NCBI GenBank assembly: GCA_016795505.1
Contig: JAEUHH010000064.1
Location: forward strand, 62,001 to 126,000
DNA from: Verrucomicrobiales bacterium
Lineage (GTDB): Bacteria > Verrucomicrobiota > Verrucomicrobiia > Verrucomicrobiales > DEV007
Length of the DNA: 64,000 nt
Direction of reading: 5' to 3'
Each line of letters begins with the position of its first letter. Within the stretch, counting starts at the first letter, position 1. A program made the position numbers and the translations under genes. Below the pieces are notes generated by a model. It did not search any database and had not been told where the DNA came from. It worked only from the letters and a program-made list of their open reading frames with translations. Below, in pieces: positions 3,921 to 62,934 of the stretch.

Positions 3921-4061
3921 GGTGGGCAGTCGGACGGTCCGACGCGGGCGAGTATGCAGGAAAGGGCGATGCCGTGGCAATGGCAAAGCGGGCCGGAAAT
4001 TTTGAACCCCGGTGGATCGCTCCAGGCGGGCCGGTTTGCGATCATACCCGGTTGACTCTCC

Positions 4062-4110
4062 GATGAGACCCTCTTTGATTGGCGATTCAACCCTGTTCGA
4101 TCGAAAATCG
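4062..4110 (+). repeat. 22-nt lattice repeat, locus A (two units)
   Basis: There are two consecutive 22-nt units, 4062-4083 and 4084-4105, each opening with GAT and carrying a central ACCCTSTT. The second unit is closest to the window consensus. The locus lies between two divergent genes and ends 12 bases before the trpS start codon, so it would fall in the trpS leader if trpS has a promoter upstream of it. Confidence 0.85.
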
Positions 4111-16836: not shown

Positions 16837-16888
16837 TTCCGATCAGACAGCGTTGGATCGGAGATGAGACCCTGTTTGATCGGATTCC
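16837..16888 (+). repeat. 22-nt lattice repeat, locus B (two units)
   Basis: Units lie at 16841-16862 (reverse-type core, ACAGCGTT) and 16863-16884 (forward core, ACCCTGTT). ATTCC-like ends flank both sides. The locus lies between the stop codons of two convergent genes and begins directly after the first stop. Confidence 0.88.
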
Positions 16889-16911: not shown

Positions 16912-19362
16912 CTACCGCGAATACACCACCTCACCGCCCAGCACGGTCATCTCGACGCCGATGCGGCGGATCTCTTCGGCGGGGCATTCGAGGTAGTCGC
17001 GATCGAGGACGGCGAAATCGGCGAGCTTGCCGGGCTCGAGGGTGCCTAGCTTTTCCTCGTCGAAGCTGAGCCAGGCCGGCCAGATGGTCAGGGTGCGCAG
17101 GGCATCGAGACGGCTGAGCTGCTGGTGGGCGCCATGGACGCGACCGCGGTCGTCGCGGCGGTTCACGGCGATGTCGAGCATCAGGGCGGGGCGGAAGGCG
17201 TTCATGGCGCGATCGGGATCGAAGCCGATCATGTGGTCGCTGTTCAGGCCGACTGGGACGCCGGCTTTGACCCATTCGCCCAAGCCCATGAACCGCTCCG
17301 CCCAGTCGGGGCCATAGATCCTGGCGATGAAATCCGCGTCGCGCTCGTAGAGGTAGCCCTGAGTGTCGACGCCGGCGTTAAGGGACTTGGCGAGGGCGGC
17401 CATCTCCGGGGTGGGGAAGTAGCAGTGGATGAGGTTGAAGCGGCGCTCGCGGATGTCCGGCTGGGTCCTGGCGACGGCTTCGACGGCCCTCAGCACGGCC
17501 ATGGCACCGCCGTCGCCGGTGACATGGGCGCTCATCGGCCAGCCTTTGGCATTGGCGGCGCCGAAGATGGCCTCCATCTGGGCGGGCGTGTAGCTCTGGG
17601 TGCCGGTATAGGCGGGATCGGCATTGCGGTAAAAGGCGGTGCGCTTTTCGCCGTGCGGCTCGCTGAGCCAGGTGGTGCCCCAGTGGATGCCGCCATCGAC
17701 GGTGATCTTCAGGCAGGTGGCGCGGACGCGATCGTCGCCGTCTCCGGGTGACAGGCCGAGCTTGGCGAGGTAGGCGTCGACGCCGGCGGCGTCCTTTGCG
17801 GAAAAGCGGAAAGTGCCGCGCACCCGGACATTCAGGTCTCCCTTGGCGGCGAGTTCGCGGAAGGTATCGAAGCCGCTGCGATCCGTCGCGCGCTCAAAAA
17901 TGGTGGTGATGCCGACGGAATTGTAAACGCCGACGAGTTCGGCATGCTTGGCGAGCACGGCATCGATGGGGTGGACCTTCGGGGCGGGCATGTGCTTGCG
18001 CAGCGAGGCCTGGCCGCCGCGCATCAGCACCGGGCGGCCGTTTTCCCGCAGCACCTCGCCATCGGGTATGGTGGCATCGGGCTGGTCGAGGCCGAGGGCC
18101 TTCCAACCAGGGGAATTGAGCACGGTTTTGGTCACCGAGATGAAAACGACGGGGTGTGTGGTGGTGGCGGCATCGAGTTCCTCCGGAGTGGGAAAGCGCT
18201 GTTCGATGAGCCGGGTGATTTCGTTGCGCGGGGTCTCGATCCACGTGCCCGGCGGCACCTGGGCAGCGCGGCGGCGGATCCAGTCCTGCAACTCGGCGAT
18301 GCTGCGGACCTCGGCGTAGTCGCCATCGAGGGCGGCGCGGGCGGCGCCGAGGCTGTGGCAGTGACTTTCCACAAAGCCGGGCACGACGGTGCGCCCGCCG
18401 AGGTCGATCCTCTGGGTCGTCGGGCTGCCGAGGGCATCGATCGCCGCATTGGAGCCGACGGCGATGATCCTGCCGTCCTTCACCGCGAGGGCTTCGGCGA
18501 TGGACTCGGAGGGGTCGAGGGTGATGATCTTGCCTTTCAGATAGACGGCGTCGGGCGGACCCGCGTCGACGATGCCGTCGAGCCGCAGATAGGCAGCGGC
18601 ATAGCGGCGGCCTAGTTCGCGGTAGGAAGGGCTGTCGAAGTGGATCTTGTCTCCCTTGTGCGCGAGTCCTTCGGCAGAGACGAAGCCGCAGAGGGGAACC
18701 TGGCCGGGCAGACGGCGATGGACCGCGTCAACGGTCTCGATCTCAGGTGTCCACGGCACATCAGGGAATTTTCCCATCTGGCCGACGAGGAAGGGCACGC
18801 GAGAGGCTTTCAGCTCGGATCGGAAACGGCCGACGAGGTCGAGCAGTTTCGCCTCATAGGCTGGGGCGAGGGCGGGCCGGCAATCGCTCTCGCCCTGGTG
18901 CCAGAGGATGCCCTTCAGTGTCCCTGCCGGCAGGGCGGCGGCGGCCCGGCGGATGGTATCGTCCCAGGGGTGGGACTGGGTCTGGTCGTGGAGCGCACCG
19001 GGCTTCCACGTGTCGATGGGAGAGCCGCCGGCGGCGCAGGGGATGAGTCCGATGGTCACGCCGGGCCTGGCTTGGGCCACTGCGCGGGCAAAGGAGCGAC
19101 CGAGACCAACGCCGGCGGAGGGTTTGTCCCAGTGCATCGGATCGACGGCGGGCACCCAGCGGCCTTCGCGATCGAACATGAGGATGCGTGGGTCGGGCTC
19201 TTGGTCCGCTGGTGTGACTTCGCCGCGGCCGGCCATGTTTGACTGCCCCACGAGGAGGAACAGGTGGAAATCGTCTTTGGGGGGCAGCGGGACATCCTGC
19301 GCCGCGAGCGGAGCGGCGAGGAAGAGGGGAAACCAGAGGGCGGCGAATCGGAATCCTGACAT
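16912..19362 (-). CDS. Exported fusion: SGNH-type acetylesterase (SASA) plus YtcJ-like amidohydrolase
   Basis: This 816-residue protein has a signal peptide (residues 1-21) and two complete enzyme domains. Residues about 30-262 match the sialate O-acetylesterase-like SASA family: nucleophile S41 in LLVGQSNMAG, ILWHQGESD at about 152-160, and the D238/H241 pair (GDKIHFDS). Residues about 272-816 match amidohydrolase family 3: H334 and H336 (ESHCHS), later His residues in SAHVTGDGGA and NLIHCYFPTPE, and Asp in LNSDHM. There is no stop or frame break at the junction. The enzyme may deacylate and then hydrolyse one periplasmic substrate; this is inference. Confidence 0.9.
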   Translation of the reverse strand: MSGFRFAALWFPLFLAAPLAAQDVPLPPKDDFHLFLLVGQSNMAGRGEVTPADQEPDPRILMFDREGRWVPAVDPMHWDKPSAGVGLGRSFARAVAQARPGVTIGLIPCAAGGSPIDTWKPGALHDQTQSHPWDDTIRRAAAALPAGTLKGILWHQGESDCRPALAPAYEAKLLDLVGRFRSELKASRVPFLVGQMGKFPDVPWTPEIETVDAVHRRLPGQVPLCGFVSAEGLAHKGDKIHFDSPSYRELGRRYAAAYLRLDGIVDAGPPDAVYLKGKIITLDPSESIAEALAVKDGRIIAVGSNAAIDALGSPTTQRIDLGGRTVVPGFVESHCHSLGAARAALDGDYAEVRSIAELQDWIRRRAAQVPPGTWIETPRNEITRLIEQRFPTPEELDAATTTHPVVFISVTKTVLNSPGWKALGLDQPDATIPDGEVLRENGRPVLMRGGQASLRKHMPAPKVHPIDAVLAKHAELVGVYNSVGITTIFERATDRSGFDTFRELAAKGDLNVRVRGTFRFSAKDAAGVDAYLAKLGLSPGDGDDRVRATCLKITVDGGIHWGTTWLSEPHGEKRTAFYRNADPAYTGTQSYTPAQMEAIFGAANAKGWPMSAHVTGDGGAMAVLRAVEAVARTQPDIRERRFNLIHCYFPTPEMAALAKSLNAGVDTQGYLYERDADFIARIYGPDWAERFMGLGEWVKAGVPVGLNSDHMIGFDPDRAMNAFRPALMLDIAVNRRDDRGRVHGAHQQLSRLDALRTLTIWPAWLSFDEEKLGTLEPGKLADFAVLDRDYLECPAEEIRRIGVEMTVLGGEVVYSR

Positions 19363-22039: not shown

Positions 22040-23311
22040 CTACCCGCGCACCTGTCCGTTGCCGAGGATGCGGTACTTGTAGCTCGTCAACTCCTCGAGG
22101 CCCATGGGACCGCGGGCATGAAGTTTGTCGGTGCTGATGCCGATTTCCGCGCCGAAGCCGAACTCGCCACCGTCGCTGAAGCGGGTGGAGGCATTCCAAA
22201 ACACGGCCGCTGAGTCGATCTCGTCGAGAAAACGCTCCGCCGCCGCGGTGTCTGCGGTGACGATGCAATCACTGTGGTGCGATCCGTGGCGATTGATGTG
22301 GTCGATGGCCGCATCCAGGTCGTCCACGATACCGACGGTGAGAATGAGGTCGAGGTACTCGGTGATCCAATCCTGTTCGGTCGCCGATACAACCCTGTTT
22401 GATCGTGAAAGCCGGATGAAATCGGGGTCGCCGCGGAGTTCCACGCCCTTTTCCTCCATCGCGGCGGCGATTTTGGGGGCGAATTCGGCGGCGATGTCGC
22501 GATGGATGAGCAGGGTCTCCATGGCATTGCAGACACCGGGTTTCTGCGCCTTGGCATTCAGCGCGATGGCGATGGCCATCTCCTGATCGGCGGCGCGGTC
22601 GACGTAGGTGTGGCAGATCCCATCGTAGTGCTTGATCACCGGCATACGGGCCAGCGACACGACCGTCTCGATGAGGCCGGCGCCGCCACGCGGGATGATG
22701 AGGTCGAGGTAACGATCCATCTCAGCCATGTGGCGAACGCTTTCGCGATCGGTGAAGGGGATGAGTTGGATGCTGTGCGGGGGCAGGCCGGCCGGGGTGC
22801 CGCCTTCCTGGAGGGCGCGGGCGATCGCGACATTCGAGTGGATGGCCTCGCGGCCACCGCGGAGGATGGTGGCATTGCCGGTCTTGAAGCAGAGGACGGC
22901 GGCGTCGGCGGTGACATTGGGCCGGCTCTCGAAGATGATGCCGATGACGCCGATGGGGACGCGGCGCTTCACGATGTGCAGTCCATTGGGGCGGGTCCAC
23001 TCGCGCAGCACTTCGCCGACGGGGTCGTGCAGGGCGGCGACTTCGCGGATGCCCTGAGCCATGGCGGCGATCCGGGCCGGGGTGAGCCGGAGGCGGTCGA
23101 TCATGGCCCCGGTGAGCCCGGCGGCCTCGGCGGCGGCGAGGTCTTCGGCATTGGCTTCGAGGATTTCACTTTCGCGGGCGACGAGAGCATCGGCCATCGC
23201 GAGAAGGATGGCGTTCTTTTGCTCCGAGGACAGTTTACCGAGGGCATAGGAAGCCGCGCGGGCTTGGGCGCCCATCTGCCAGATCGCGGACTTGATCTCT
23301 TCGGAGGTCAT
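22040..23311 (-). CDS. proA: Gamma-glutamyl phosphate reductase
   Basis: This is the second step of proline synthesis, reducing glutamyl-5-phosphate to the semialdehyde with NADPH. The protein has 423 residues, typical for ProA. It shows the aldehyde dehydrogenase fold with VPIGVIGIIFESRPNVT, TGNATILRGGREA, IPRGGAGLI, the catalytic Cys in PGVCNAMETLL and the diagnostic ATEQDWITEYLDLI. Residues about 302-316 are encoded by repeat locus C, whose second unit gives SRSNRVV just before the conserved ATEQDW; this segment differs from what I expect in ProA but stays in frame. The start overlaps the proB stop by 4 bases (ATGA). Confidence 0.96.
   Translation of the reverse strand: MTSEEIKSAIWQMGAQARAASYALGKLSSEQKNAILLAMADALVARESEILEANAEDLAAAEAAGLTGAMIDRLRLTPARIAAMAQGIREVAALHDPVGEVLREWTRPNGLHIVKRRVPIGVIGIIFESRPNVTADAAVLCFKTGNATILRGGREAIHSNVAIARALQEGGTPAGLPPHSIQLIPFTDRESVRHMAEMDRYLDLIIPRGGAGLIETVVSLARMPVIKHYDGICHTYVDRAADQEMAIAIALNAKAQKPGVCNAMETLLIHRDIAAEFAPKIAAAMEEKGVELRGDPDFIRLSRSNRVVSATEQDWITEYLDLILTVGIVDDLDAAIDHINRHGSHHSDCIVTADTAAAERFLDEIDSAAVFWNASTRFSDGGEFGFGAEIGISTDKLHARGPMGLEELTSYKYRILGNGQVRG
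22364..22407 (+). repeat. 22-nt lattice repeat, locus C, inside proA
   Basis: Units are at 22364-22385 (diverged) and 22386-22407 (good match, core ACCCTGTT). They lie inside the proA reading frame on the opposite strand. The first unit encodes the conserved ATEQDWI segment and may match by chance; the second fits the consensus well. Confidence 0.65.
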
Positions 23312-24224: not shown

Positions 24225-24299
24225 GCACCCGTAGTAAAACGGATATTACGTCGGTCTCCGGAACCGAAGGTCCAGGTTCGATTCCTGGCGGGTGCACCA
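24225..24299 (+). tRNA. tRNA-Arg (CCG)
   Basis: The acceptor arm GCACCCG (24225-24231) pairs with CGGGTGC (24289-24295), followed by discriminator A and an encoded CCA (24297-24299). The T arm has GGTTCGATTC. The anticodon stem TCGGT/ACCGA encloses the loop CTCCGGA, giving anticodon CCG, which reads CGG arginine codons. It is divergent from proB and convergent with the PLP enzyme gene. Confidence 0.95.
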
Positions 24300-35819: not shown

Positions 35820-36482
35820 ATGAAACCGTCAAAGTCTCTCTCCTTGATGTCGGTGTTGGCCTTGGCCATCGGTTCGCAGTTCGCAGCCCCGCAGGTATCC
35901 GAAGCGGTTGTTCGGGTCTATCAGGTGTCCTTCAGTGCGAAGGCGGCTGTCCGTCCGAAACCGATTACGCAAGGGGGGCGCTCCCTGGCACGAGTAGGCT
36001 TTCTGATTTACGACACCAATGCCCCGGGCCAATCAGCCACGATCGAAGTGTTTCGAAATCGAACCTATCAAATTAACGGTCCAATGTGGACTGGATTCCC
36101 GTTCCCTGGAACGAATACTCCGGATGGTGTGGGTATCATTCCGTCGGCAATCGGCCTCTCTGCGCTTGATCTGAATTCTGATGGATTCGTAGACACGGAA
36201 TTGGCTTCCATGGGCTTCGGTTTCGGTTCCACCACACATTCGCGGATCTTGGCAGGTGCGATTCCCCGGAATGGCTTTCGGATCGGAAACACGACGTTCT
36301 TCCAGACCGCTAAAGCACTCAGTGGGTATGGTTGCGTGACAGTTTCCGGAGTCGATCACTACTTCATCCGGGAGAAGTGGGCCATCAACGGCTTTTCTGC
36401 GAACAATCCTGCGAACGTCGCGGCCGGAGTGAACCTCGTGGTGGCATACCTGTTGTCTCGCGGCTACGTTGTGGCTCCCTGA
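35820..36482 (+). CDS. Low-GC exported protein of unknown function
   Basis: This 220-residue protein has a signal peptide (about residues 1-29, ending VSEAV). I do not recognise the family. The mature protein has few charged residues and contains FLIYDTNAPGQSATIEVFRN, LDLNSDGFVDTELASMGFGFGS and a C-terminal helix GVNLVVAYLLSRGYVV. The LNSDGFVD stretch could bind calcium like a dockerin or EF loop. Base composition is clearly more AT-rich than the neighbours, suggesting recent acquisition. ATG 35820 begins at the signal peptide. Confidence 0.7.
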   Translation: MKPSKSLSLMSVLALAIGSQFAAPQVSEAVVRVYQVSFSAKAAVRPKPITQGGRSLARVGFLIYDTNAPGQSATIEVFRNRTYQINGPMWTGFPFPGTNTPDGVGIIPSAIGLSALDLNSDGFVDTELASMGFGFGSTTHSRILAGAIPRNGFRIGNTTFFQTAKALSGYGCVTVSGVDHYFIREKWAINGFSANNPANVAAGVNLVVAYLLSRGYVVAP

Positions 36483-36544
36483 CAGGCATCCGCGCGCAAC
36501 TCGCCCGGTCGATGGGATATCCAGTTAATCCCCTTGGGAACGGC

Positions 36545-37441
36545 ATGACATTTCGTTCCTTTGTTCCGCGGGCGGGCGGGTTGTTTTGTGCGGTCTCCGT
36601 GTTGGTTCAGTGCAGTGAGCCACCGGAGCCGGAGGAGACCGACAGCGGACCGCCGAAAGCGGTGACGCTTTCACCTGCCACGCCTCCCGTCGCCGCCGCG
36701 GTTGACGACCCGACCGCCGCCGTGACCCTGCGCGATCCCCGCCTGGGGCCCCACGATCAGCGGGAGTTTGCGCCACTGGCCGACGAGGATCGCGCCCCGT
36801 TCGAGGCTCTGACCGGAGAGTTTTTCGCTTCCACGGATCTCGATCGGCGCCTGGAGATTCTCGATGAGATCGAGGAAGCCTATTACGGCGACCAATTGCT
36901 CCCCTTCGTCGATCGCATCCTCGCTCTCGGTCAGGATGAGTTGTCTGTGAGGGCGGTCGAGATGCTCCAGGGCAATGTTTCGCCCGCCATTTTGGCCGTC
37001 TTGGAAAAAGCTCTGGCATCCCCGTCGGAGGACGTTCGCCTCGCCGCCGCCACCGCCGGAGCCCATGTCCGCGACGATGCGCTGGTTGGCTATTACCGAA
37101 AAATCTTTGCCGATCCCAGCATCGACGTTCAGATGCAGGCGATCGAAAGCGTGGACGCCCAGTCCGAGCCACGGCGGGTGCAGATCTTCCGGGCGGCCCT
37201 TCAATCGAAGCTGCCCGAGTTGCAGGTGGCGGCCGTCGGCATCGTCCACCTGACCGCCACCCGCCAGAGTGTCGATGTTTTGTTCGAAGCGCTCGACTCT
37301 CCCCACGCCGACGTGAAGGACGAGGCGCGGTTTGCCCTGGAGTTCCTGGTGGGAGAGATCTTCTCCAGCGGCGGCCAGGCCCGCGAGTGGTGGGGTCAGA
37401 ACCGCAACCGCTTCGACAACGATCTGGCTCCCGCCGAGTAA
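36545..37441 (+). CDS. HEAT-repeat lipoprotein
   Basis: This 298-residue protein has a lipoprotein signal (GGLFCAVSVLVQC, lipidated Cys at about residue 20) and a Pro/Asp/Glu-rich linker of about 45 residues. Alpha-helical HEAT-type repeats follow from about 120 onwards: VRAVEMLQGNVSPAILAVLEKAL, VRLAAATAGAHVRDDALVGYYRKI, VQMQAIESVD, LQVAAVGIVHLTATRQSVDVLFEAL and VKDEARFALEFLV. Such solenoids scaffold proteins, here in the periplasm or outer membrane. It is convergent with the helicase gene, with repeat locus D between them. Confidence 0.82.
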   Translation: MTFRSFVPRAGGLFCAVSVLVQCSEPPEPEETDSGPPKAVTLSPATPPVAAAVDDPTAAVTLRDPRLGPHDQREFAPLADEDRAPFEALTGEFFASTDLDRRLEILDEIEEAYYGDQLLPFVDRILALGQDELSVRAVEMLQGNVSPAILAVLEKALASPSEDVRLAAATAGAHVRDDALVGYYRKIFADPSIDVQMQAIESVDAQSEPRRVQIFRAALQSKLPELQVAAVGIVHLTATRQSVDVLFEALDSPHADVKDEARFALEFLVGEIFSSGGQAREWWGQNRNRFDNDLAPAE

Positions 37442-37475
37442 GAAACTCCCTCCGCGCCTCCGCCGCTGACGTGAC

Positions 37476-37545
37476 GATGGAACAGGGTTGCCTCTCCGAT
37501 GGAACCCTGTTTGATCGGAGATCCTACCCTGTTTGATCGGAATCC
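37476..37545 (+). repeat. 22-nt lattice repeat, locus D (three units)
   Basis: The units are 37476-37497 (reverse core, ACAGGGTT), 37498-37519 and 37520-37541 (forward core, ACCCTGTT), closed by ATCC. The first two can pair as AACAGGGTT/AACCCTGTT around a 13-base loop. The third unit overlaps the end of the helicase gene and encodes its last residues (SDQTG and stop). Confidence 0.92.
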
Positions 37546-40256
37546 GAGCCCGATGGGCCGAGCAGGCCGGCTAGGATCTCCGGGGTCAGGGCGAGGCTGC
37601 GGGTGGCGCCGGAAAGCAGGTCGCCGGCGAGGTCGCCTTTTTTCTCCTGCATCTGCTGGATGCGCTCCTCCACGGTGTCCTGACAGATCAGCTTGTGGAC
37701 GAAGACGGGCTTGTCCTGTCCGATGCGGTAGGCGCGGTCGGTGGCCTGGTTCTCGGCGGCGGGATTCCACCAGGGGTCGTAGTGGATCACAATGTCCGCG
37801 CCGGTGAGGGTGAGTCCGGTGCCGCCGGCTTTCAGGGAAATGAGGAACACCTCGCCCTCGCCGCCCTGGAACCGCTCGACCAGCGACTGGCGGTCGCGGG
37901 TCTCGCCGGTGAGCTTGAGATAGGTGCAGCCGGTGGCGACGAGATGCGCCTCGATGAGGTCCAGCATGGAGGTAAACTGGGAAAAGAGCAGCACGCGGTT
38001 GCCCTCCTGCCGGAAGGTGTCGAGCAGGTCGACGAGGTGGTCGAACTTGGCCGAAGGGGCGTCGCGGCCGTCGAGCAGGCGTGGATGGCAGCAGATCTGG
38101 CGCAGTTTCAGCAGGGCGTCGAGGAACATGACGCGGGCCTCGGTGCCCTGGATGGCGAGGGCCTGACGCACGTGTTTGTCCATGGTGGAGCGCACGGTCT
38201 CGTAGAGGTCCTTTTGTGCCTCGGACATCTCGATGGTGTGGACGATCTCGGTCTTGGGCGGCAATTCCTTGGCCACGTCGTGCTTGGTGCGGCGCAGGAT
38301 GAGCGGGCCGACGCGGCGGGCCAGCGCGGCGCGCCGGGACTCGTTGCCGTTTTTCTCGATGGGGGTGCGATAGGTTTCGGTGAAGCGGTCCCAGCCGCCC
38401 AGCAGGCCGGGCATGAGGAAATGCATCAGGCTCCACAACTCGCCGAGGTGATTTTCCACCGGGGTGCCGGACAGGCAGAGCCGGTGCGCGGCGCGGAGCC
38501 GGCCGACGGCGTGGGTGACCTGGGCGCCGGGATTCTTGATGTGCTGGGCTTCGTCGAGCACGAGCAGGTGGAACTCGTGGGCGAGGAAGGCGTCGAGATC
38601 GCGTCCGATGAGGGCGTAGGAGCTGAGCACGAGATCGGCCGAGGGGATGCGGGGGAAATGCCGCTGCCGGTCGGCGCCCTGGAGGACGAGGACTCGCAGG
38701 CCGGGGGCGAATTTGGCGGCTTCGCGCTGCCAGTTCATCACCACGCTGGTCGGTGCGAGGACCAGCGATGGCCGCCCGGCATGCCGGCCGCTTTCGATCT
38801 CGGCGAGGAGATGGGCGATGGTTTGCAGGGTCTTTCCGAGGCCCATGTCGTCGGCGAGGATGCCATTCAGCCGATAGCGGGCGAGGAACTGCATCCAGTG
38901 GTAACCATCGAGCTGATATTCCCGCAGGGTGGCGCGCAGGCCGGAGGGCAGGGGCACGCGGTCGATGCGGTCGAAGCCGGTGAGCCGCTCGGCCAGTCCG
39001 GCGATCTCTGGCGGCGCCTCGACGGCGGGCAGCAGGCCCGGTTCGGCAGTGAGCAGGGCGGCATCGAGCGCGCCGAGGCGGATGGGGCCGCCGGGGAATT
39101 TGAAATCCATCAATTCCCCCAGAGTGACGAGGATGCGCCGGAATCGGCCGACCGGCAGGGCGAGTCCGCGGCCGTCGGGCAGGAAGATCATGAACTCCTG
39201 TCCGTCGGGCAGGCCCTCGGTGACTTCGAGAAATCGGTTGGCGACCAGTGCGGCGAGGATGGGCTGCAACTCGAAGGCTTCGCCATCGATCTCAAAGCCG
39301 GCGGAGAGATGGAACCACCCGCGGCCTTCCTCCACGATCTCGGCGCGCCAGGCCTGGCTGCGGAAAATCAGCGGCTTCAGGCCGAAGTCGGGAGCGAAGC
39401 GGACCTCCCAGCCGCGTTTTTCGAGCGCGGGCACGCCTTCGTGGCGGAATCGCTGCCAGAAAAATTCCTCGTGAGGCCATTCCTGCCGATTGGGGGCCCA
39501 GAGGGTGCCGGAAAAGGGAGGGCGCTCCAGTTTTCGCAGCGAGGCGGGCGGCTCCTCCGCACCGGGCAGGAAATCGAGGGCGTAGAGATGATTCAGCGCC
39601 GCGGTCTCGCGCGCCCGGTCGCGGCGGATCTTTCCCTCCGGGGTCACGATGGGCAGGAGTTGGCCGGCGGGATCGAGCGGCACGCGGTGGGTGCCGTAGA
39701 TCGCCCAGGCCTGGGCCAGTCGTTCGGGTAGCCAGGCGAGGCGCTCGCGGTCGTCGGGCCGACGCTCGAGCCGGAGAAGAAAGCGGGGTTCGGGCGTTTC
39801 GCCGGTGACCGGTGGGGGCGGGGCGGCTGGCTGGGGATCGGCTTTTGGCTCGGCGGGCAGGGCGAGGGATTTCCCCTGGGTCATGGTTTCCGCATGGGGA
39901 CTGCCACCGAGGGCGGTCTGGAGGCGCGTTTCCGGGTCTTTGGCCAGCAGTTCGAGCAGGGCGGCGGCATGTTCGCACTGGGTCGAGACGGCGCAGTCGC
40001 AGGAGGCATCGAGGGCGAGGCCGGCACACTCGCGCCACAGGGCGACGACGGGATGGTGGGTGGCGCCGTCCTTGTCGACGACGGTGGCGGTGAGTTCGGC
40101 ATCGCCGGTGTCGAGGAGTTCGGCCCGCACGTCGATGACCTGTCGGCCGCGGGCGAGTTTCTGGCCGGCTGCGAGCGCCGATCCGCCGAATCGGCGGCGC
40201 CAGTCGCCCCGGGCAAGATGGTCGGCCAGTGCGGCGGCGTCGAGCGGGGCGGACAT
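37524..40256 (-). CDS. SNF2-family helicase with SWIM zinc finger
   Basis: This is a 910-residue DNA-dependent ATPase. An N-terminal SWIM-type zinc motif (CDCAVSTQCEHAAALLELL) lies near residue 75, and a long bacterial SNF2 N-terminal extension follows. The helicase core has motif I GILADDMGLGKTLQTIAHL, motif II VLDEAQHIKN, motif III CLSGTPVENHLGELWSLMHFL and the C-terminal lobe with VLLFSQFTSMLDLI, LISLKAGGTGLTLTGAD and DRAYRIGQDKPVFVHKL. It probably remodels protein-DNA complexes or acts with RNA polymerase. The last five residues come from repeat locus D. ATG 40256 gives the usual start before the SWIM region. Confidence 0.95.
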   Translation of the reverse strand: MSAPLDAAALADHLARGDWRRRFGGSALAAGQKLARGRQVIDVRAELLDTGDAELTATVVDKDGATHHPVVALWRECAGLALDASCDCAVSTQCEHAAALLELLAKDPETRLQTALGGSPHAETMTQGKSLALPAEPKADPQPAAPPPPVTGETPEPRFLLRLERRPDDRERLAWLPERLAQAWAIYGTHRVPLDPAGQLLPIVTPEGKIRRDRARETAALNHLYALDFLPGAEEPPASLRKLERPPFSGTLWAPNRQEWPHEEFFWQRFRHEGVPALEKRGWEVRFAPDFGLKPLIFRSQAWRAEIVEEGRGWFHLSAGFEIDGEAFELQPILAALVANRFLEVTEGLPDGQEFMIFLPDGRGLALPVGRFRRILVTLGELMDFKFPGGPIRLGALDAALLTAEPGLLPAVEAPPEIAGLAERLTGFDRIDRVPLPSGLRATLREYQLDGYHWMQFLARYRLNGILADDMGLGKTLQTIAHLLAEIESGRHAGRPSLVLAPTSVVMNWQREAAKFAPGLRVLVLQGADRQRHFPRIPSADLVLSSYALIGRDLDAFLAHEFHLLVLDEAQHIKNPGAQVTHAVGRLRAAHRLCLSGTPVENHLGELWSLMHFLMPGLLGGWDRFTETYRTPIEKNGNESRRAALARRVGPLILRRTKHDVAKELPPKTEIVHTIEMSEAQKDLYETVRSTMDKHVRQALAIQGTEARVMFLDALLKLRQICCHPRLLDGRDAPSAKFDHLVDLLDTFRQEGNRVLLFSQFTSMLDLIEAHLVATGCTYLKLTGETRDRQSLVERFQGGEGEVFLISLKAGGTGLTLTGADIVIHYDPWWNPAAENQATDRAYRIGQDKPVFVHKLICQDTVEERIQQMQEKKGDLAGDLLSGATRSLALTPEILAGLLGPSGSDSDQTG

Positions 40257-40556
40257 GGCGAAAAGATTGGGGGAGACGGGTCGGGTGAGGGAAATCTCGG
40301 GCCTTTTGTCGGCTTGGCCCGAAAATGGCTGCGGTTGTCGCCGGGGAAAATGACGATATCGTGGCGGTCGCCAAGGGGAATCCGAATTTCCGACCGAAAT
40401 CCGATGGGCAATGAACCGAGCCAACCGGCGGCGTGAGGGCTGTGGGTAAAAATTCGCCAAAAAATCGGCGCTTGACCGCCTGAAACATTGAGATTAAAGG
40501 TCAAAGAGTCAAAACTCGACATTTCCGATAGGGAATTAGGTATTTAGCATCAAAGA
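40257..40556. promoter_or_regulatory. Divergent control region between helicase and cysH
   Basis: This is 300 bases without a gene, becoming AT-rich towards cysH. TTGACC at 40472-40477 could be a -35 box. An imperfect palindrome ATTTCC-GATA-GGGAAT at 40521-40536, close to cysH, resembles the operator style of Rrf2-type sulfur regulators. Both are suggestions from pattern only. Confidence 0.35.
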
Positions 40557-48910: not shown

Positions 48911-50042
48911 TCAGTCCAGGTCGCCGCCGCCCTTTTTCGACTTCAGGCCCCGCAGCTTCGCCTCGATGAAGCCGTCCAGATCGCCGTCCATCACCGCCTG
49001 GATGTTGCCCGTCTCCCAGCCCGTGCGCAGGTCCTTGACCATCTGGTAGGGTTGGAAAACATAGGACCGGATCTGGCTGCCGAAGGCGATCTCGCCCTTC
49101 TCGCCATAGACCCGCTCCATCTCCGAGCGCTTCTTGTCCTCCTGCAGTTGGTAGAGCTTGGCCTTCAGCATCTGCATCGCGAGGTCGCGGTTGCGATGCT
49201 GGCTGCGCTCCACCGTGCAGCGGATCTGGATGCCGGTGGGAAAGTGGGTCAGTTGCACCGCCGTCTCCACCTTGTTCACATTCTGGCCGCCCTTGCCGCC
49301 GCTGCGGGCCGTCTTGATCTCGATGTCCTCGTCGCGGATCTCGATGGTCGAGTCCTCGTCGAGTTCCGGCGACACATCCACGCTGGCGAACGACGTGTGC
49401 CGCCGCGCATTCGAGTCGAATGGCGAGATCCGCACCAGCCGGTGCACACCCCGCTCGCAGGTGAGAAAGCCGTAGGCATTTTCGCCCTCCACCCGCATCG
49501 TCACCCCGCGGATGCCGACCTCCTCACCCTCCTGCACGTCCACGATCTCCACCTTGTAGCCCTTGGCCTCGGCCCAGCGCTTGTACATGCGGAAGAGCAT
49601 GTCCGCCCAGTCGCACGCCTCCGTGCCGCCGGCACCCGCGTGGATGGTCAGGAAGGCATTGCCCCCGTCGTGCTCGCCATTGAGCAGCGTCTGGATCTCC
49701 AGCTTGTCGAGCGCCTCCGTGATGGCCGCCGACTCATCCAGCACCTCGCGGATGGACTGCGAGTCCGCCTCCTCGCGCGCCATGTCGATCAGCACCTCGA
49801 AGTCGTCGATCCGGGCCGTCAGCGTGTTGATGGGCACGATCTTGTTTTTAAGGCGCGCCACCTCGCCCATCTTCTGTTGAGCGGCCTCCTTGCGATCCCA
49901 GAAGCCGGGCTGGCTCATCTCCATTTCGAGCCCGCCGAGTTGTCCTACCAGGCGTTCGAAGTCAAAGATACCTCCGGAGCTGGCCCAGGCGGGCCTTGAG
50001 CGCTTCCGTGTCGATGGCATTGAGGTCTTCGAGCGTTTCCAT
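48911..50042 (-). CDS. prfB: Peptide chain release factor 2 with programmed +1 frameshift
   Basis: This factor ends translation at UGA and UAA codons. The zero frame begins at ATG 50042 ([18 protein letters not shown]) and runs 26 codons to an in-frame TGA at 49962-49964. Decoding then shifts by one base, skipping the T at 49964, and continues [13 protein letters not shown] in the second frame to the stop at 48911, giving about 376 residues. The stop-codon recognition motif SPFD and the catalytic GGQ ([11 protein letters not shown]) are present. Release factor 2 regulates its own level through this shift. Confidence 0.96.
49958..49976 (-). promoter_or_regulatory. prfB programmed frameshift signal
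   Basis: On the minus strand the sequence reads CGGAGG-TAT-CTT-TGA-C. There is an internal Shine-Dalgarno-like element (GGAGG) three bases before the slippery CTT codon and the TGA stop followed by C. This is the classical bacterial release factor 2 recoding site. Confidence 0.97.
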
Positions 50043-50305
50043 GGTGTTGGGATATGGGACAGGGGGGGGAAGAAGGAGGGACAGTGCCGGCAAAAACCGG
50101 GCCATATCAGTGCCACCAAAGCGTCCCGCGTCAACCCGCGACCCCGTCGAGCGCCCGCCCGCCAGCCCCTCAGAGTGTCGGTCCCGCCGCCCCCGAGCCG
50201 GCCAACCCCTCCGGGATGCGGCGTGTGGGTCAGGAGCATCAAAGCCGCATCAAACAAAAGTAGCTCGGGCTTCAGCCCGAAACCCGTCAGTCCCGGCGCC
50301 GCCCC

Positions 50306-50415
50306 ATCCCGAGCCGCCACCAATCCCTCGCCAACGACACCGCCACCACCCCCCAAAAAAATCCCGAGCCGCCACCAATCCCTCGCCAACGACACCGCCA
50401 CCACCCCCCAAAAAA
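50306..50415 (+). repeat. 55-nt tandem duplication
   Basis: Two copies, at 50306-50360 and 50361-50415, are essentially identical. Each starts ATCCCGAGCCGCCACC and ends in a C run followed by an A run. The sharpness of the copies suggests a recent duplication by slippage or unequal exchange. Confidence 0.9.
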
Positions 50416-50578
50416 ATCCCGAACCGCGGAACAGTTCTCCATCAAACCGAACCGCGGAGCGGTTCTCCTTGAATAGCCAGGGGTCGGAACGACCCCTGGT
50501 ATCCGCCCACGCCCCCGGCAACCCCGGATGGGGTTGTCCTATGCGGTAAACGCGCCGCCCACCCACCCCCTATTTTCC

Positions 50579-50626
50579 GATCAAAGAGGGTTGTCTCGCC
50601 GATCCAACCCTGTTGCATCGGATTCC
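50579..50626 (+). repeat. 22-nt lattice repeat, locus E (two units)
   Basis: Units are at 50579-50600 (reverse core, AGAGGGTT) and 50601-50622 (forward core, ACCCTGTT), closed by TTCC. AGGGTTG and CAACCCT can pair. The locus lies about 106 bases before the esterase start. Confidence 0.88.
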
Positions 50627-50731: not shown

Positions 50732-51865
50732 ATGAACGAACGCCCCCGCCTCCATCCTGCGACCCTGTTGACCCTTTTCCTGATCCTACCCTTTTCTCTG
50801 GCCGCGCAACAGCCGCCGGGGGGAGATCGCTTCGCGGAGTGGGACCGCAATGGTGACGGAAAGCTGAGCCGCGACGAATTGCCCGAGCGCCTGCGTCCGA
50901 ACTTCGACCGGGTCGATGCGAATCGCGACGGCGCGATCTCCCGCGAGGAACACGCCGCAGTGGGCCGCGCCCGCGGGCAACAGGGCGGCGGTGGCCGGGT
51001 GCCGGAGGGGGTGAAGAAGATCGCCGATCTCGACTATGTCGGCGGGGGCAATCCCCGGCAAAAGCTCGACCTCTATCTGCCGGAAAAGCCGGCGGGAGCG
51101 AAGCCTGTGCCGCTGGTGGTGTTCATCCACGGTGGTGGCTGGCAGGGCGGTGACAAGACCGGCGGCGGGGGCCGGGTGGGACCGCTGGTGGCTACGGGAA
51201 ACTATGCCGGCGCCTCGATCGGCTACCGGCTCAGCGGGGAGGTCCAGTGGCCGGCCCAGATCCACGACTGCAAGGCGGCGATTCGCTGGCTGCGCGCCCA
51301 CGCGGCGGAATACGGCTACGATCCCGACCGCATCGCTGTCTGGGGCACCTCGGCCGGCGGTCATCTCGTCGCCATGCTCGGCGTCTCCCACGGGGTGGCG
51401 GCGCTGGAGGGCGATCTCGGCGAGCACGATGCGGTGTCGTCGCAGGTGCAGTGCGTGGTGGATTTCTTCGGACCGACCGATTTTCTCTCCATCGGCGATC
51501 ATCCCAGCTCGATCCGCCATGACGCCGCCGATTCGCCGGAGTCGAAGCTCATCGGCGGGCCGATCCGGGAACATCCGGAGAAGGCCACCCAGGTGTCGCC
51601 CATCACCCACGTCTCGGCCGGCGATGCCCCCCATCTCATCGTCCATGGCACCGAGGATCAGGCGGTGCCCTATCCGCAATCGGTCGAGTACGAAAAGCGG
51701 CTCGAGGCGGCGGGCGTGCCGGCCATCCTCATCACCGTGGAGGGCGGCGGCCACGGGCAGGGCTTCGGCCCGGAGGTGAATGGGGCGGTCGAGGCTTATC
51801 TGGCGCGGCATCTGCTCGGCGAACCGCGGGAGCTCGCCGATAAAAAGGTCAAAGCCGGCGAGTGA
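50732..51865 (+). CDS. Exported EF-hand alpha/beta-hydrolase esterase
   Basis: This 377-residue protein has a signal peptide (about 1-25) and two EF-hand-type calcium loops, DRNGDGKLSRDEL at about 38-50 and DANRDGAISREEH at about 62-74. A carboxylesterase-type domain follows, related to the BD-FAE feruloyl/acetylxylan esterases. HGGGW (about 133-137) forms the oxyanion hole, and GTSAGG carries the nucleophile Ser near residue 209. The Asp in HGTEDQAVPY and the His in GGGHGQGF complete the triad. It probably removes ester groups from plant or algal polysaccharides. A protein of unknown function follows 21 bases later. Confidence 0.92.
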   Translation: MNERPRLHPATLLTLFLILPFSLAAQQPPGGDRFAEWDRNGDGKLSRDELPERLRPNFDRVDANRDGAISREEHAAVGRARGQQGGGGRVPEGVKKIADLDYVGGGNPRQKLDLYLPEKPAGAKPVPLVVFIHGGGWQGGDKTGGGGRVGPLVATGNYAGASIGYRLSGEVQWPAQIHDCKAAIRWLRAHAAEYGYDPDRIAVWGTSAGGHLVAMLGVSHGVAALEGDLGEHDAVSSQVQCVVDFFGPTDFLSIGDHPSSIRHDAADSPESKLIGGPIREHPEKATQVSPITHVSAGDAPHLIVHGTEDQAVPYPQSVEYEKRLEAAGVPAILITVEGGGHGQGFGPEVNGAVEAYLARHLLGEPRELADKKVKAGE

Positions 51866-54273: not shown

Positions 54274-54519
54274 TTATCGGTTTTCGCGCTCCATTTCGAC
54301 CGCCTCCAGAGCATTGCATGGAGTGCCCTTCGCGGGGATGACCAGGAGACCGTCGCGCTCCACCAGTTCGGGTTCATCAAAGCCGACTGGCGTAAGCTCA
54401 AAGTGATTCCCGGTCGAGCGTATCCGCAGGAGGCTTCCGCTGGTCAAATTGAACTGCTCCCGGATGGCCAGGGGCAGCATCAATCGGCCGGCATCGTCGA
54501 TGACTACGGTGGCGCTCAT
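54274..54519 (-). CDS. AbrB/MazE-type antitoxin
   Basis: This 81-residue protein has a swapped-hairpin DNA-binding domain at residues 1-47 (MSATVVIDDAGRLMLPLAIREQFNLTSGSLLRI), typical of AbrB/SpoVT antitoxins. The acidic C-terminal half (FDEPELVERDGLLVIPAKG) is where such proteins bind their toxin. It should repress its own promoter and neutralise the PIN protein encoded convergently. Tail-to-tail orientation is unusual for such a pair. Confidence 0.85.
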   Translation of the reverse strand: MSATVVIDDAGRLMLPLAIREQFNLTSGSLLRIRSTGNHFELTPVGFDEPELVERDGLLVIPAKGTPCNALEAVEMERENR

Positions 54520-54674
54520 TGGATGATGGTAATTTCTATCATCGACTCACGGTCTCGGCAAGACCGGGCATGGGGCAGAGGAGGTCGGCCCGCCACATCG
54601 TTCTTGATTCGATCCAAATCGCTCTGAAGCTTTTAGAACCCTCGCCGACGGAACGCCCGTCCGGAATCCCTCCC

Positions 54675-55592
54675 ATGCCAGCCAACGCCGATTCCGAAAA
54701 AGCAGCCCCCACCCCCGACGCTGCCCGCATCGACGTGTGGCTGTGGGCGGTGCGCCTTTTCAAGACCCGCAGCCTTGCCGCCGAGGCGTGCCGCAAGGGC
54801 CAGGTCGCGGTGAACGGCCAGCGGGTGAAGCCTGCCCGGCAGGTGCGGCCCGGCGATGAACTGTCCGTCACCAAGAGCGATCTCGTCCTCACCGTTGCCG
54901 TGCGGGCCGTCCTGACCCGCCGGGTCGGGGCCAGGGAGGTGCCCGCCTATCTCGAGGATCGCACGCCCGAGGAGGCCCGCCTCGCGGCCGCCGCTGCGCG
55001 GCAGCAGTCACGCGAGGGCGTCTTCGACCGCGACGAGGGCGCCGGCCGACCGACCAAGCGCGAGCGCCGCGAGATGGAGGACATCATCGCCGAAGCCGAG
55101 GACCGGCAGGCCTTTCTCACCGCCATGCAAAAAGCCACCCGCTCCCGTTTCCTCCTCGGTCTCCTGGCCACCCTGCTGTTCGCCCACGCGGCGCCGGGTT
55201 GGGCGGCCGAGCCTCCGCGTCGCTCCTTCGAGCCGTCGGCCAAGGCGCTGACCTTCCAGATTTCGGAGAACCTCAGCGTCTCGGCGGAACAGCTCGCGCC
55301 GGAGAACGATCCCGCGACCGGCGCCATGACCGGCCTGGCCGCCTCGGGCCGGGTCATCATCAAGGCCAAGCCAAATGGCGCCGCCGATTTCATCGTGGTC
55401 AGTTGCGACAAGGCGACCTACCAGGCCGACGGCGATGTCATCGTGCTGACCGGCTGGCCGGCGGTGAAGTCGGGGATGCAGATCCTGCGCGCCACCGCCG
55501 CCGAGACCTTCGTGCGCGTCGCCCGCGCCTCCGGCAAATGGGAGATCAAAGGGCCGCACAAGATCGAGCTGAGTTTTGGGAAGAAGAAGTGA
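54675..55592 (+). CDS. Fusion of an S4 RNA-binding (Hsp15-like) domain and an LptA/OstA-like exported domain
   Basis: This is a 305-residue open frame. Residues about 15-150 match the Hsp15/HslR family: S4 fold RIDVWLWAVRLFKTRSLAAEACRKGQVAVNGQRVKPARQV, then PAYLEDRTPEE and the basic tail RPTKRERREMEDI. From residue 151 an in-frame ATG (55125) starts a signal-peptide-like stretch MQKATRSRFLLGLLATLLFA and a domain like LptA/OstA (SEQLAPENDP, ATGRV-type repeats, ADFIVVSCDKATYQADGDVIVLTGWP). A cytoplasmic and an exported function would conflict in one chain. Two proteins may be made, the second from 55125. Confidence 0.85.
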   Translation: MPANADSEKAAPTPDAARIDVWLWAVRLFKTRSLAAEACRKGQVAVNGQRVKPARQVRPGDELSVTKSDLVLTVAVRAVLTRRVGAREVPAYLEDRTPEEARLAAAAARQQSREGVFDRDEGAGRPTKRERREMEDIIAEAEDRQAFLTAMQKATRSRFLLGLLATLLFAHAAPGWAAEPPRRSFEPSAKALTFQISENLSVSAEQLAPENDPATGAMTGLAASGRVIIKAKPNGAADFIVVSCDKATYQADGDVIVLTGWPAVKSGMQILRATAAETFVRVARASGKWEIKGPHKIELSFGKKK

Positions 55593-55972
55593 GGGGGGAG
55601 AGTTCCAGGTTCAAAGTTCAAAGTTCAAAGTTCGGGCTCCCTTTTGCCTGTGCCATATCGATCGGACAGGGTGTCATCGCTGATGCAACAGGGTGTCATC
55701 GGAGAGGCAACAGGGTGCCATCGGAATCCGTTGGCTTTTACCGGTTGGCGGGTCTTGGTCCCCGTGTATCAAGTCTCACTCCTGATTGAAAACTTGACGT
55801 TGGCCAACGGCCAACCTCACCGTAGCCAGGGGCAACGCCCCTGGAACCTGTCCACGAAATACCGGTTTGGCTGAAGGCCAAACTCACCGAGGGCAGGCCC
55901 TGGCGTCCGATGTCGACGCGATGCCGGTCTGAATTTCACAGTGCCGGATCGCGCCTTGACCGGCTGCCCGAA
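55593..55972. other. Intergenic region with heptamer repeat, locus F and three hairpins
   Basis: This is 380 bases without a gene. A TTCAAAG heptamer is repeated three times near 55608-55630. Repeat locus F follows (55660-55729). Then come three close hairpins: GTTGGCC-AAC-GGCCAAC (55799-55815), CCAGGGGC-AAC-GCCCCTGG (55826-55844) and GTTTGGC-TGAAG-GCCAAAC (55865-55883). The first and third are followed by CTCACCG or TCACCG. Flanking genes are convergent, so the hairpins could also act as terminators. Confidence 0.75.
55660..55729 (+). repeat. 22-nt lattice repeat, locus F (three reverse units)
   Basis: Units are at 55660-55681, 55682-55703 and 55704-55725, all with the reverse core ACAGGGTG, closed by ATCC. 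The locus lies between convergent genes. Confidence 0.9.
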
Positions 55973-57055
55973 TCACAACTTCGCCAGCGAATCGTCCATG
56001 GCGGCGAGGAGATTGCCAATGGTCTCGTCGGTCTCGTCGCCCATGTTGGAGATGCGGAAGGTGGTGCCTTTGATCTTGCCGTAGCCGCCGTCGAGGGCGA
56101 GGCGGTGATTTTCGCGGAGCAGCTTCTGGAAGCGGGCGACATCGATGCCGAGATTGTTGGCCACGCAGGTCAGGGACACGGAGCGGTAGCCCTCCGGGGC
56201 GAAGAAGTCGAAGCCGTGGCGGCGCACCCAGTCGTGGGCCATGGCATTGAGTCGGGCATGGCGGGCGTGGCGCTGCTCGATGCCTTCGTCAAAGATGACG
56301 CCGAGCTGGTGCCGCAGGCCATAAATGGTGGCGATGCAGGGGGTGCTGGGGGTCATGAAGCTCTCCTGATTTTTCTGGAACTCGAGGAAGTCGAGGTAGT
56401 AGCCGCGGTCGGGCATGGATTTGGCGCGCTCGAGGGCGGCCTCGGACACGGCAAAGAGGGCGAGGCCGGGCGGGAGGGCGAGGGCTTTCTGGCTGCCGGT
56501 GAGGAGAACGTCGATGCCGAGTTCGTCCATGGGGGTGGGCACGACGGTGAAGGAGGACACGGTGTCGACGACGAGGAGCACGCCGGGGTGTTTTTTCACG
56601 GCGGCGGCGACGCCGGCGAGGGAACTCATCACGCCGGTGGAAGTCTCGTTGTGGATGAAGGTGACGAGGTCGAACTCGCCGGTGGCGAGGCGGTCTTCGA
56701 CATCGGCGGGATCGATGGGCTGGCCCCACTCGTACTGGAGGGCTTCGGCCTGCTTGCCACAGCGACGGGCGACGTCGACCCATTTGTCGGAGAAGGCGCC
56801 TTTGCAGAGACAGAGCACTTTCTTGGCGGCGAGGTTGCGCAGGGCGCCCTCCATGACGCCCCAGGCCGACGAGGTGCTGAGGAAGACGGGACGGCTGGTC
56901 TGGAACAGGGCCTGGAGCCGGGGATGCATCTCCTCGTAGAGGGCCTGGAAGTCCTTGCTGCGGTGGCCGATCATGGGGGCCGACATGGCGGCGTAGGTGG
57001 CGGGGGACACTTCGACGGGGCCGGGGATGTGGAGGCGGATGTGGTCTTGGCTCAT
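55973..57055 (-). CDS. Class V aminotransferase (alanine/serine-glyoxylate type)
   Basis: This 360-residue PLP enzyme has the fold of alanine-glyoxylate and serine-glyoxylate aminotransferases. It starts RLHIPGPVEVSPATYAAMSAPMIGHRSKDF, followed by STSSAWGVMEGALRN, FIHNETSTGVMS, VDTVSSFTVVP and the PLP lysine in LLTGSQKALALPPGLAL. The C-terminal domain ends RISNMGDETDETI, which is typical. It could convert glyoxylate to glycine, in keeping with the 2-hydroxyacid dehydrogenase nearby; 2-aminoethylphosphonate or other substrates are possible. ATG 57055 was chosen over 57100 because the extra residues are not conserved. Confidence 0.9.
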   Translation of the reverse strand: MSQDHIRLHIPGPVEVSPATYAAMSAPMIGHRSKDFQALYEEMHPRLQALFQTSRPVFLSTSSAWGVMEGALRNLAAKKVLCLCKGAFSDKWVDVARRCGKQAEALQYEWGQPIDPADVEDRLATGEFDLVTFIHNETSTGVMSSLAGVAAAVKKHPGVLLVVDTVSSFTVVPTPMDELGIDVLLTGSQKALALPPGLALFAVSEAALERAKSMPDRGYYLDFLEFQKNQESFMTPSTPCIATIYGLRHQLGVIFDEGIEQRHARHARLNAMAHDWVRRHGFDFFAPEGYRSVSLTCVANNLGIDVARFQKLLRENHRLALDGGYGKIKGTTFRISNMGDETDETIGNLLAAMDDSLAKL

Positions 57056-57199
57056 GGGTAGGGGAAAAAAGAAACGCCGCGATCGCGGCGCCGGTTGCAT
57101 GAAAAGAGGCGGAATTAAGGTCCCGCGCCTCCGGATGTAAACTGGAAATCGGGAGGAGGTGCCGGCTGGGGCGCGGCGAGGACCGGCTGGGGTGGGGGA

Positions 57200-62580: not shown

Positions 62581-62895
62581 TCATTTCCACACCGTGCCAT
62601 CGTGGAAATCGGCAGGAATCGACAGCAGCAGGTGGGCCACGCCCTGCCACATCAGCCAGAGCAACGCCAGCCCGATGAGCAATTGCAGCGCCGGCCACAC
62701 CGCCAGCCTTCGCTCCCGCTGGCGTGCCGCCGTGACCTGATTTCGCTCTGCGGCCAGACAGGCTGCGCAGGTGAGCCGGCCATCGTGCTCGGTGATGCAC
62801 TCGGCGCAATAGAAGACCCCGCAGGTGGGGCAGCGTGCCGCCGCCGGTCGATCGGCGTGGATGCGGCACAGGGTCTTGGACAGCGGCGTCGTCAT
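62581..62895 (-). CDS. B-box/zinc-ribbon protein with one membrane helix
   Basis: This 104-residue protein has an N-terminal zinc-binding segment rich in Cys and His: CRIHADRPAAARCPTCGVFYCAECITEHDGRLTCAACLA, resembling a B-box or rhomboid-associated zinc finger. A transmembrane helix follows at about 66-92 (LQLLIGLALLWLMW). It probably binds a partner in the same membrane complex. Its ATG overlaps the stop of the preceding gene by 4 bases, and the junction lies inside repeat locus G. Confidence 0.85.
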   Translation of the reverse strand: MTTPLSKTLCRIHADRPAAARCPTCGVFYCAECITEHDGRLTCAACLAAERNQVTAARQRERRLAVWPALQLLIGLALLWLMWQGVAHLLLSIPADFHDGTVWK

Positions 62896-62934
62896 GACAG
62901 GGTTTGATCGGCGATGGTACCCTGTTGCCTCGTA
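62891..62934 (+). repeat. 22-nt lattice repeat, locus G (two units)
   Basis: Units are at 62891-62912 (reverse core, ACAGGGTT) and 62913-62934 (forward core, ACCCTGTT). The locus spans a gene junction. It encodes the last residues (RQQGTIADQTLS) of one membrane protein and the start codon of the next. Confidence 0.85.

Follow-up and report, generated by a model that had tools for sequence, protein, structure and literature searches.

A phased 22-bp repeat placed at even intervals along a verrucomicrobial chromosome points to a putative chromosome-wide recognition system

Short units on an exact 22-nt lattice, in both orientations, recur in a 64,000-nt stretch of DNA (hereafter the window; contig C88, positions 62001–126000, of the 6.55-Mb draft genome G000). 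Are they mobile repeats, parts of RNAs or sites at which a protein reads the chromosome? The original prediction, made from the letters of the window, had left these readings side by side. It had placed units at 4062, 16841, 22364, 37476, 50579, 55660 and 62891, and all of these coordinates proved correct. A profile scan recovered the same seven loci together with an additional unit starting at 4040, which raises the earlier total of 16 units to 17 (Table 1). Fifteen matches to the unit pattern with up to three mismatches were found in the window, compared with a mean of 0.11 and a maximum of 3 in 100 shuffles. From its translation, we take the start next to element A to be that of trpS. The sole Rfam match in the window was a tRNA gene at 24225–24296.

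Table 1. Elements of the window, with their units and neighbouring open reading frames (ORFs)
Element	Position	Strand	Units	Context
A	4040..4105	.	three, the first weak	just upstream of trpS-like start at 4122
B	16838..16887	.	two, TTCC/GGATT ends	convergent ORFs 15700-16836 (+) and 16912-19362 (-) on either side
C	22364..22407	.	two, over the ATEQDWITEYLD stretch	inside proA (ORF 22040-23311, -)
D (locus of the original prediction)	37473..37545	.	three	flanked by ORF 36332-37441 (+, HEAT repeats) and ORF 37524-40460 (-, SNF2 helicase)
E	50576..50625	.	two (reverse, forward)	flanked by ORF 48911-50566 (-, release factor) and ORF 50732-51865 (+, esterase)
F	55657..55729	.	three	flanking ORFs 54519-55592 (+) and 55910-57061 (+)
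G	62891..62934	.	two	overlap with 3' end of ORF 62892-63911 (-)

We read 12 contigs or contig parts of G000 (1.21 Mb, 18.5% of the genome) with a 19-bp unit profile, the score being summed over two units 22 bp apart. This search yielded 131 elements at thresholds of 12–16 bits, falling to 127 at 25 bits, and the reversed sequence contained none; about 707 elements are projected for the complete genome. As the count is nearly flat from 12 to 25 bits, there is hardly any tail of decayed two-unit copies. Weak lone units (≥4 bits) outside the elements numbered 71 compared to 9 in the reversed control, indicating that some relics or precursors exist. Two units were present in 101 elements and three in 30; a stricter earlier count gave 127 arrays, including two of a single unit and two of four. 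In G000 overall, ACCCTGTTNNATCGGA occurs 318 times (163 forward, 155 reverse) and, read backwards, not once. The genome scan proposed in the original prediction therefore showed that the units are clearly far commoner, and more phased, than chance would produce. By eye, tandem minisatellite-like repeats were seen in element flanks at G000:C3 120040–120440 and C48 72458–73321.

The unit is 19 bp long and reads GATnnnAC-AGG-GTnnnATC or its reverse complement. Of 290 units, 252 have CCT or AGG as the inner triplet and 31 have CGG or CCG; the triplet between units is TCC, GGA, GGC or GCC in 151 of 163 cases. The half-site GATnnnAC alternates in direction with its mirror, GTnnnATC, at a pitch of 11 bp (an 8-bp half-site and a 3-bp spacer), so that each element presents 4 to 6 half-sites on one helix face. 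Distances between units that matched at 11 or more of 13 positions and lay within 80 nt of each other were 22 nt in 144 pairs, 44 nt in 27, 53 nt in one and 75 nt in one. The exact lattice noticed in the window thus holds across the 1.21 Mb with two exceptions, and both core orientations share it, as had been stated. The AATCC or ATTCC ending was a local impression; TTTCC is the commonest left boundary and GGAAA the commonest right one, with conservation weakening ~5 nt beyond the units. Two units of one element are directly similar to each other (p=0.009 and 0.002), which suggests local unit duplication. The arrays are not CRISPR, in agreement with the first description, as their 2–3 units are contiguous at 22 nt, without unique spacers of ~30 nt. 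The alternating halves look like the half-sites of a protein, and the idea that a contiguous, phased repeat is a candidate protein site on one helix face appears plausible. One element (L053:2207–2313, G000:C20) is unusually long, with five units and CCCAG/CCCGG cores, and lies ~370 nt after a Y1_Tnp gene that contains an internal TAG.

The elements are evenly spaced along the chromosome. The mean gap between neighbours in G000 is 9.1 kb, with a coefficient of variation (CV) of 0.475 (119 gaps). Three nulls of 2000 runs each, all keeping the counts per contig, placed elements anywhere, in intergenic DNA by length or among intergenic gaps; their mean CVs were 0.93, 1.10 and 0.90, and the lowest CV in any run was 0.688. 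Gaps below 3 kb numbered 2 of 119, compared to null means of 33.6, 44.8 and 31.4 (null minimum 18), and the longest gap, 24.0 kb, is shorter than the smallest longest gap of the null runs (24.2 kb). Short and long gaps are both scarce in G000. In G013, a genome of another genus, the mean gap is 6.2 kb with a CV of 0.65 (null mean 0.95, null minimum 0.63), 7 gaps fall below 3 kb where 22.1 are expected (null minimum 13), and there is one 26-kb gap. Placement along the chromosome is regular in G000 and more weakly so in G013.

Positions are also shared with close relatives. For 8 of the 131 elements, in three 20-kb regions, the matching place was located in three congeners; element C3:119977, which runs across a region edge, was left out. 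Pairs were not counted when the prediction fell off the locus, identity was below 68% or the place was more than 400 nt from an aligned stretch. An element was found within 100 bp of the predicted position in 15 of 22 testable element–genome pairs and within 500 bp in 16. Among random places more than 1.1 kb from any element, the corresponding figures were 4 and 23 of 289, and among intergenic places without an element, 3 and 4 of 52. The counterparts of element E in G001, G002 and G003 are 58, 79 and 310 bp away from the predicted position, respectively; that of element D is at the matching place in G001 (L187) and was not found in G002 (L186). Element F and element C3:133881 are without a counterpart within 500 bp in any counted locus, the former in its two testable congeners, G002 and G003. 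One best-placed locus per genome was kept, and among those dropped is a G001 locus (L273) with a counterpart of C3:133881 25 bp from the prediction. The in-gene element G000:C9 35149–35190 has counterparts 6–12 bp from the matching place in all three congeners; these counterparts are spelled differently, and those of G001 and G003 have the core turned the other way.

The spelling of the elements changes between relatives. G000 and its congeners have the core ACAGGGT in common; the outer bases are GAC in 61% and GAT in 23% of 66 congener units, compared to GAT in 77% of the 292 units of G000. The unit of G013 (51% GC) reads GAAccAAyAGGGTtgGTTC, and 62 elements, most in the inverted AGG...CCT form, were found in 400 kb of this genome at all thresholds from 8 to 18 bits, with none in the reversed sequence. 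Of 386 genomes drawn from the order, 38 contain the exact pair ACAGGGT-N15-ACCCTGT; the backward control gave single matches in 6. The 38 include 4 of 4 genomes of the window's genus (63–162 matches each), 2 of 2 of genus g11 (92 and 528) and 30 of 33 of genus g2 (1–150), besides a single match each in G015 and G160. With up to two mismatches allowed, in 74 genomes of the family, G179, G021 and G200 of g2 were at or near the control, as were the genomes outside g1, g2 and g11, the largest excess there being 11 versus 2 (G026, g17). Among 387 genomes of the phylum, 4 matched (G000 with 142, three with one each), and the control gave single matches in 4. Because the pattern demands both the inverted arrangement and the ACAGGGT core, it would not detect dialects that have diverged further. 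Within these samples, three genera of a single family are rich in the exact core pair, and elsewhere its counts are close to chance. Genome-wide over-representation with clade dialects, as used to define DNA uptake sequences (DUS/USS), is thus observed.

At least 13 stretches with the element came from a scan of the genome-contig collection. Element D with its flanks had no match in 72,556 plasmid records, and in the viral collection 4 stretches carried a single unit while two-unit patterns matched 1 and 0 times. A two-unit element of GACTC-type spelling lies within ORF 4309–4986 of viral contig IMGVR_UViG_3300035698_019880 (L293:4678–4718), which may be a bacterial or proviral stretch. On G049:C14 (113 kb, L143–L148), elements spelled as in G000 (50–64 bits) occur in the first 45 kb and those beyond are weaker and differently spelled; four other sampled contigs of G049 have weak elements only. 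This contig is possibly chimeric or mis-binned, or reflects a transfer.

Gene calls were made with a simple codon-usage finder (868 genes, 87% coding), and gene contexts are therefore approximate. By a loose criterion, 28 of the 131 elements are in-gene; co-oriented genes flank 48, convergent genes 27 and divergent genes 25, and the remaining 3 are at contig edges. By a stricter one, 21 are in-gene, and 84% are not fully within genes. The in-gene elements are weaker (median 46 versus 57 bits, p=0.016) and lie farther from intergenic space than random in-gene points do (1651 versus 540 nt, p=3e-4), which would be expected if a stretch that lacks intergenic room still requires an element. Two in-gene copies were compared with homologues. 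The product of proA has no inserted residues at element C relative to two solved ProA proteins, and in a DLTGLPP-type gene, where an element covers the DLTGLPP motif itself, the length was unchanged by eye relative to three paralogues. The absence of an insertion indicates that these two copies arose by substitution.

Of 127 units lying between co-oriented genes, 94 have the CCT form on the sense strand (p=6e-8, with units within an element not being independent), and the elements in this setting lie a median of 35 nt past the upstream gene. Replication polarity was rejected as the cause, because the bias resides in elements between co-oriented genes and is absent in G013 (36 of 69 units). Element orientation in G000 correlates with GC skew (r 0.26–0.33), which probably follows from the orientation bias together with C-rich coding strands. 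In the predicted coding strands of the 1.21 Mb, C (355960) exceeds G (331933), and local GC skew follows the gene strand. Avoidance of AGGG, which resembles a ribosome-binding site, in transcribed leaders may be a reason for the bias.

Could the elements act in RNA, as terminators, processing sites or leader elements between genes? The orientation bias and the position just past the upstream gene would suit such a role, as would the density in convergent gaps (27 elements in 69 gaps of at least 60 nt, compared to 48 in 312 co-oriented and 25 in 134 divergent gaps). However, the elements are evenly spaced and number about one for every 6.6 predicted genes, 21 of the 131 are in-gene and without orientation bias there (22 of 43 units), G013 shows none, and AGGG avoidance may be all that the bias in G000 reflects. 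The original prediction had also suggested hairpins from reverse–forward pairs of units. The fixed half-site bases are complementary by design; the variable triplets within units have a mean of 1.06 complementary positions compared to 1.20 after shuffling (289 units), and are fully complementary in 12 of 289 units where 20.4 are expected. Hairpin models for 47 elements were rejected, since within-unit, inner and outer pairings gave no excess over shuffles and two of four were in deficit. Complementarity being below, or no better than, that of shuffled sequences, and Rfam at gathering score finding only the tRNA in the window, neither the hairpins nor an RNA element are borne out, and we consider a function at the transcript level improbable. 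A mobile repeat is improbable as well, whether REP/REPIN-like and dispersed by a RAYT-type transposase or a MITE that has target immunity. Hundreds of mostly intergenic copies and 17 Y1_Tnp matches in G000 would fit it, and target immunity could impose a minimum spacing. Yet positions are common to congeners, the two in-gene copies were formed without insertion, and 292 units of the 1.21 Mb comprise 210 distinct sequences. Nor do Y1_Tnp counts follow the elements, contrary to the RAYT link that the original prediction had raised. Matches occur in 54 of 74 family genomes, unrelated to element counts; G025 is the richest in core pairs and has a single weak match, and there is no Y1_Tnp match in G047, G051, G053, G182 and G203, all of which exceed the control in core pairs. 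Three of eight fetched Y1_Tnp loci (22.2 kb) contained an element, with ~2.4 expected from density. Within 25 nt of the ends of the 131 elements, the tags GTAG, CTAC, CGTC and GACG occurred 4, 6, 25 and 23 times, without enrichment over scaled shifted controls (9.9, 12.2, 32.2 and 35.5). Flanking direct repeats, as left by target duplication, were about as frequent as after shuffling in 11 of 12 tests; in the remaining one, 3 were observed versus 0.4 (5 nt, offset 5).

A transposable repeat is less well supported by these data than a site for a putative DNA-binding protein that is kept in place and limited to about one copy per 9 kb. The element would be a compound binding site, its half-sites repeating every 11 bp and its ends usually marked by TTTCC and GGAAA, at which a dimeric putative reader protein may bind the units cooperatively. 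Selection could hold about one site per 9 kb, spare neighbours being lost and long site-free stretches disfavoured. Such a periodic mark might organise the chromosome as a domain anchor, a supercoil barrier or a loading site for a bridging, condensing or segregating protein. We regard this as the most likely use, at a little short of an even chance. It explains why the elements are compound, why they are evenly spaced and why some sit within long genes, and is consistent with the exact lattice of 131 elements (none in reversed sequence), with a CV, longest gap and count below 3 kb outside all 3 × 2000 null placements, with weak in-gene copies far from intergenic space, with the kept positions and with an independent dialect, fairly evenly spaced, in another genus. 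On the other hand, the orientation bias in G000 is unexplained by the model, spacing in G013 is less even, with its 26-kb gap, 2 of 8 tested elements are without a counterpart in counted loci, and the weak lone units may be precursors or relics. Moreover, close relatives have switched the outer bases at many sites together; a joint change is hard to evolve for many needed sites and fits a self-propagating drive, such as that of uptake, better. The fuller proposal, that a putative cooperative reader anchors regular ~9-kb domains and that landmark and reader co-diverged into genus and species dialects with many landmarks staying in place, is more tentative still.

The elements might instead be uptake signals like DUS or USS. 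A competence receptor would prefer element-bearing DNA, and drive plus recombination would keep about one element per ~10-kb imported fragment, which would yield both even spacing and clade dialects. This use is possible, though doubtful. It would explain the dialects and the accumulation by substitution, and it sits well with a dialect change between congeners that left positions unchanged, with in-gene copies lacking insertions and with the excess of weak lone units, as gradual accumulation would leave. DUS show clade dialects, inverted-pair arrangements and intragenic copies (PMC3630211), and USS a relatively even distribution (PMC7811141). ComEC (PF03772) is present in 58 of 74 family genomes, among them every one of the 4 in the window's genus and the two in g11; it is equally present in genomes without elements, so by itself it does not decide the matter. 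The spacing of ~9 kb here stands against ~1 kb for USS (PMC7811141), and 21 of 131 in-gene copies against 65% in H. influenzae and 35% in N. gonorrhoeae (PMC1939737). The same paper refers to an opinion that an even distribution is a sign of replication, repair or compaction, and its own argument is that uptake sequences fall short of the evenness required of compaction sites. A mark for recombination, repair or self-DNA, acting like Chi or as a shield from a defence nuclease, would also be genome-wide and mostly chromosomal, in line with the single two-unit viral match and with the lack of plasmid matches to the one element searched. Known Chi sites are far shorter than these compound-lattice sites of 41–63 bp, and we consider such a mark unlikely.

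Both the reading as an organising mark and the uptake reading point to a chromosome-wide recognition system whose landmark is carried by relatives in the same design and their own spelling. In the usual view, a bacterial chromosome is partitioned into ~10-kb domains, and we know of no dedicated, evenly spaced sequence mark at this scale; a literature search for such marks found none. In the material searched on repeats and uptake sequences in Verrucomicrobia, the element is described nowhere, as far as the available text of those sources extends. The even ~9-kb spacing, the dialects of relatives and the positional conservation are the main findings, and they were beyond the reach of a reader of the window alone. 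If the elements are domain marks, domain organisation becomes testable by mapping or editing the sites; should they be uptake signals, none earlier is known to us in Verrucomicrobiota. With either use, several hundred sites, many of them retained in place, that are respelled together between close relatives make a strong case for studying the coevolution of a site and its reader.

Among known systems, parS, KOPS, Chi, matS and similar sites are dispersed along chromosomes and read by a cellular protein, as the elements would be by a putative one. To our knowledge, none of them is a compound site on a 22-bp lattice, present about once per 9 kb and with genus-level dialects. REP, BIME and REPIN sequences resemble the elements in their hundreds of short, mostly intergenic copies, with units in alternating orientations and regularly spaced (PMC2817692), and the verrucomicrobium O. 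terrae is reported to be rich in GTAG repeats (PMC3733652). The elements differ in lacking hairpin support, GTAG/CGTC enrichment and a Y1_Tnp link, and in their conserved positions and even spacing. HIP1 of cyanobacteria is likewise highly iterated and clade-restricted (PMC4390886). It is a single 8-bp palindrome tied to methyltransferases, whereas the site here is compound. DUS of Neisseriaceae and USS of Pasteurellaceae share with the elements the genome-wide occurrence, clade dialects, relatively even distribution, intragenic copies and inverted pairs. They are, however, short motifs, ~1 kb apart in H. influenzae, while the elements described here span 41–63 bp, consist of 2–3 phased units and recur every ~9 kb.
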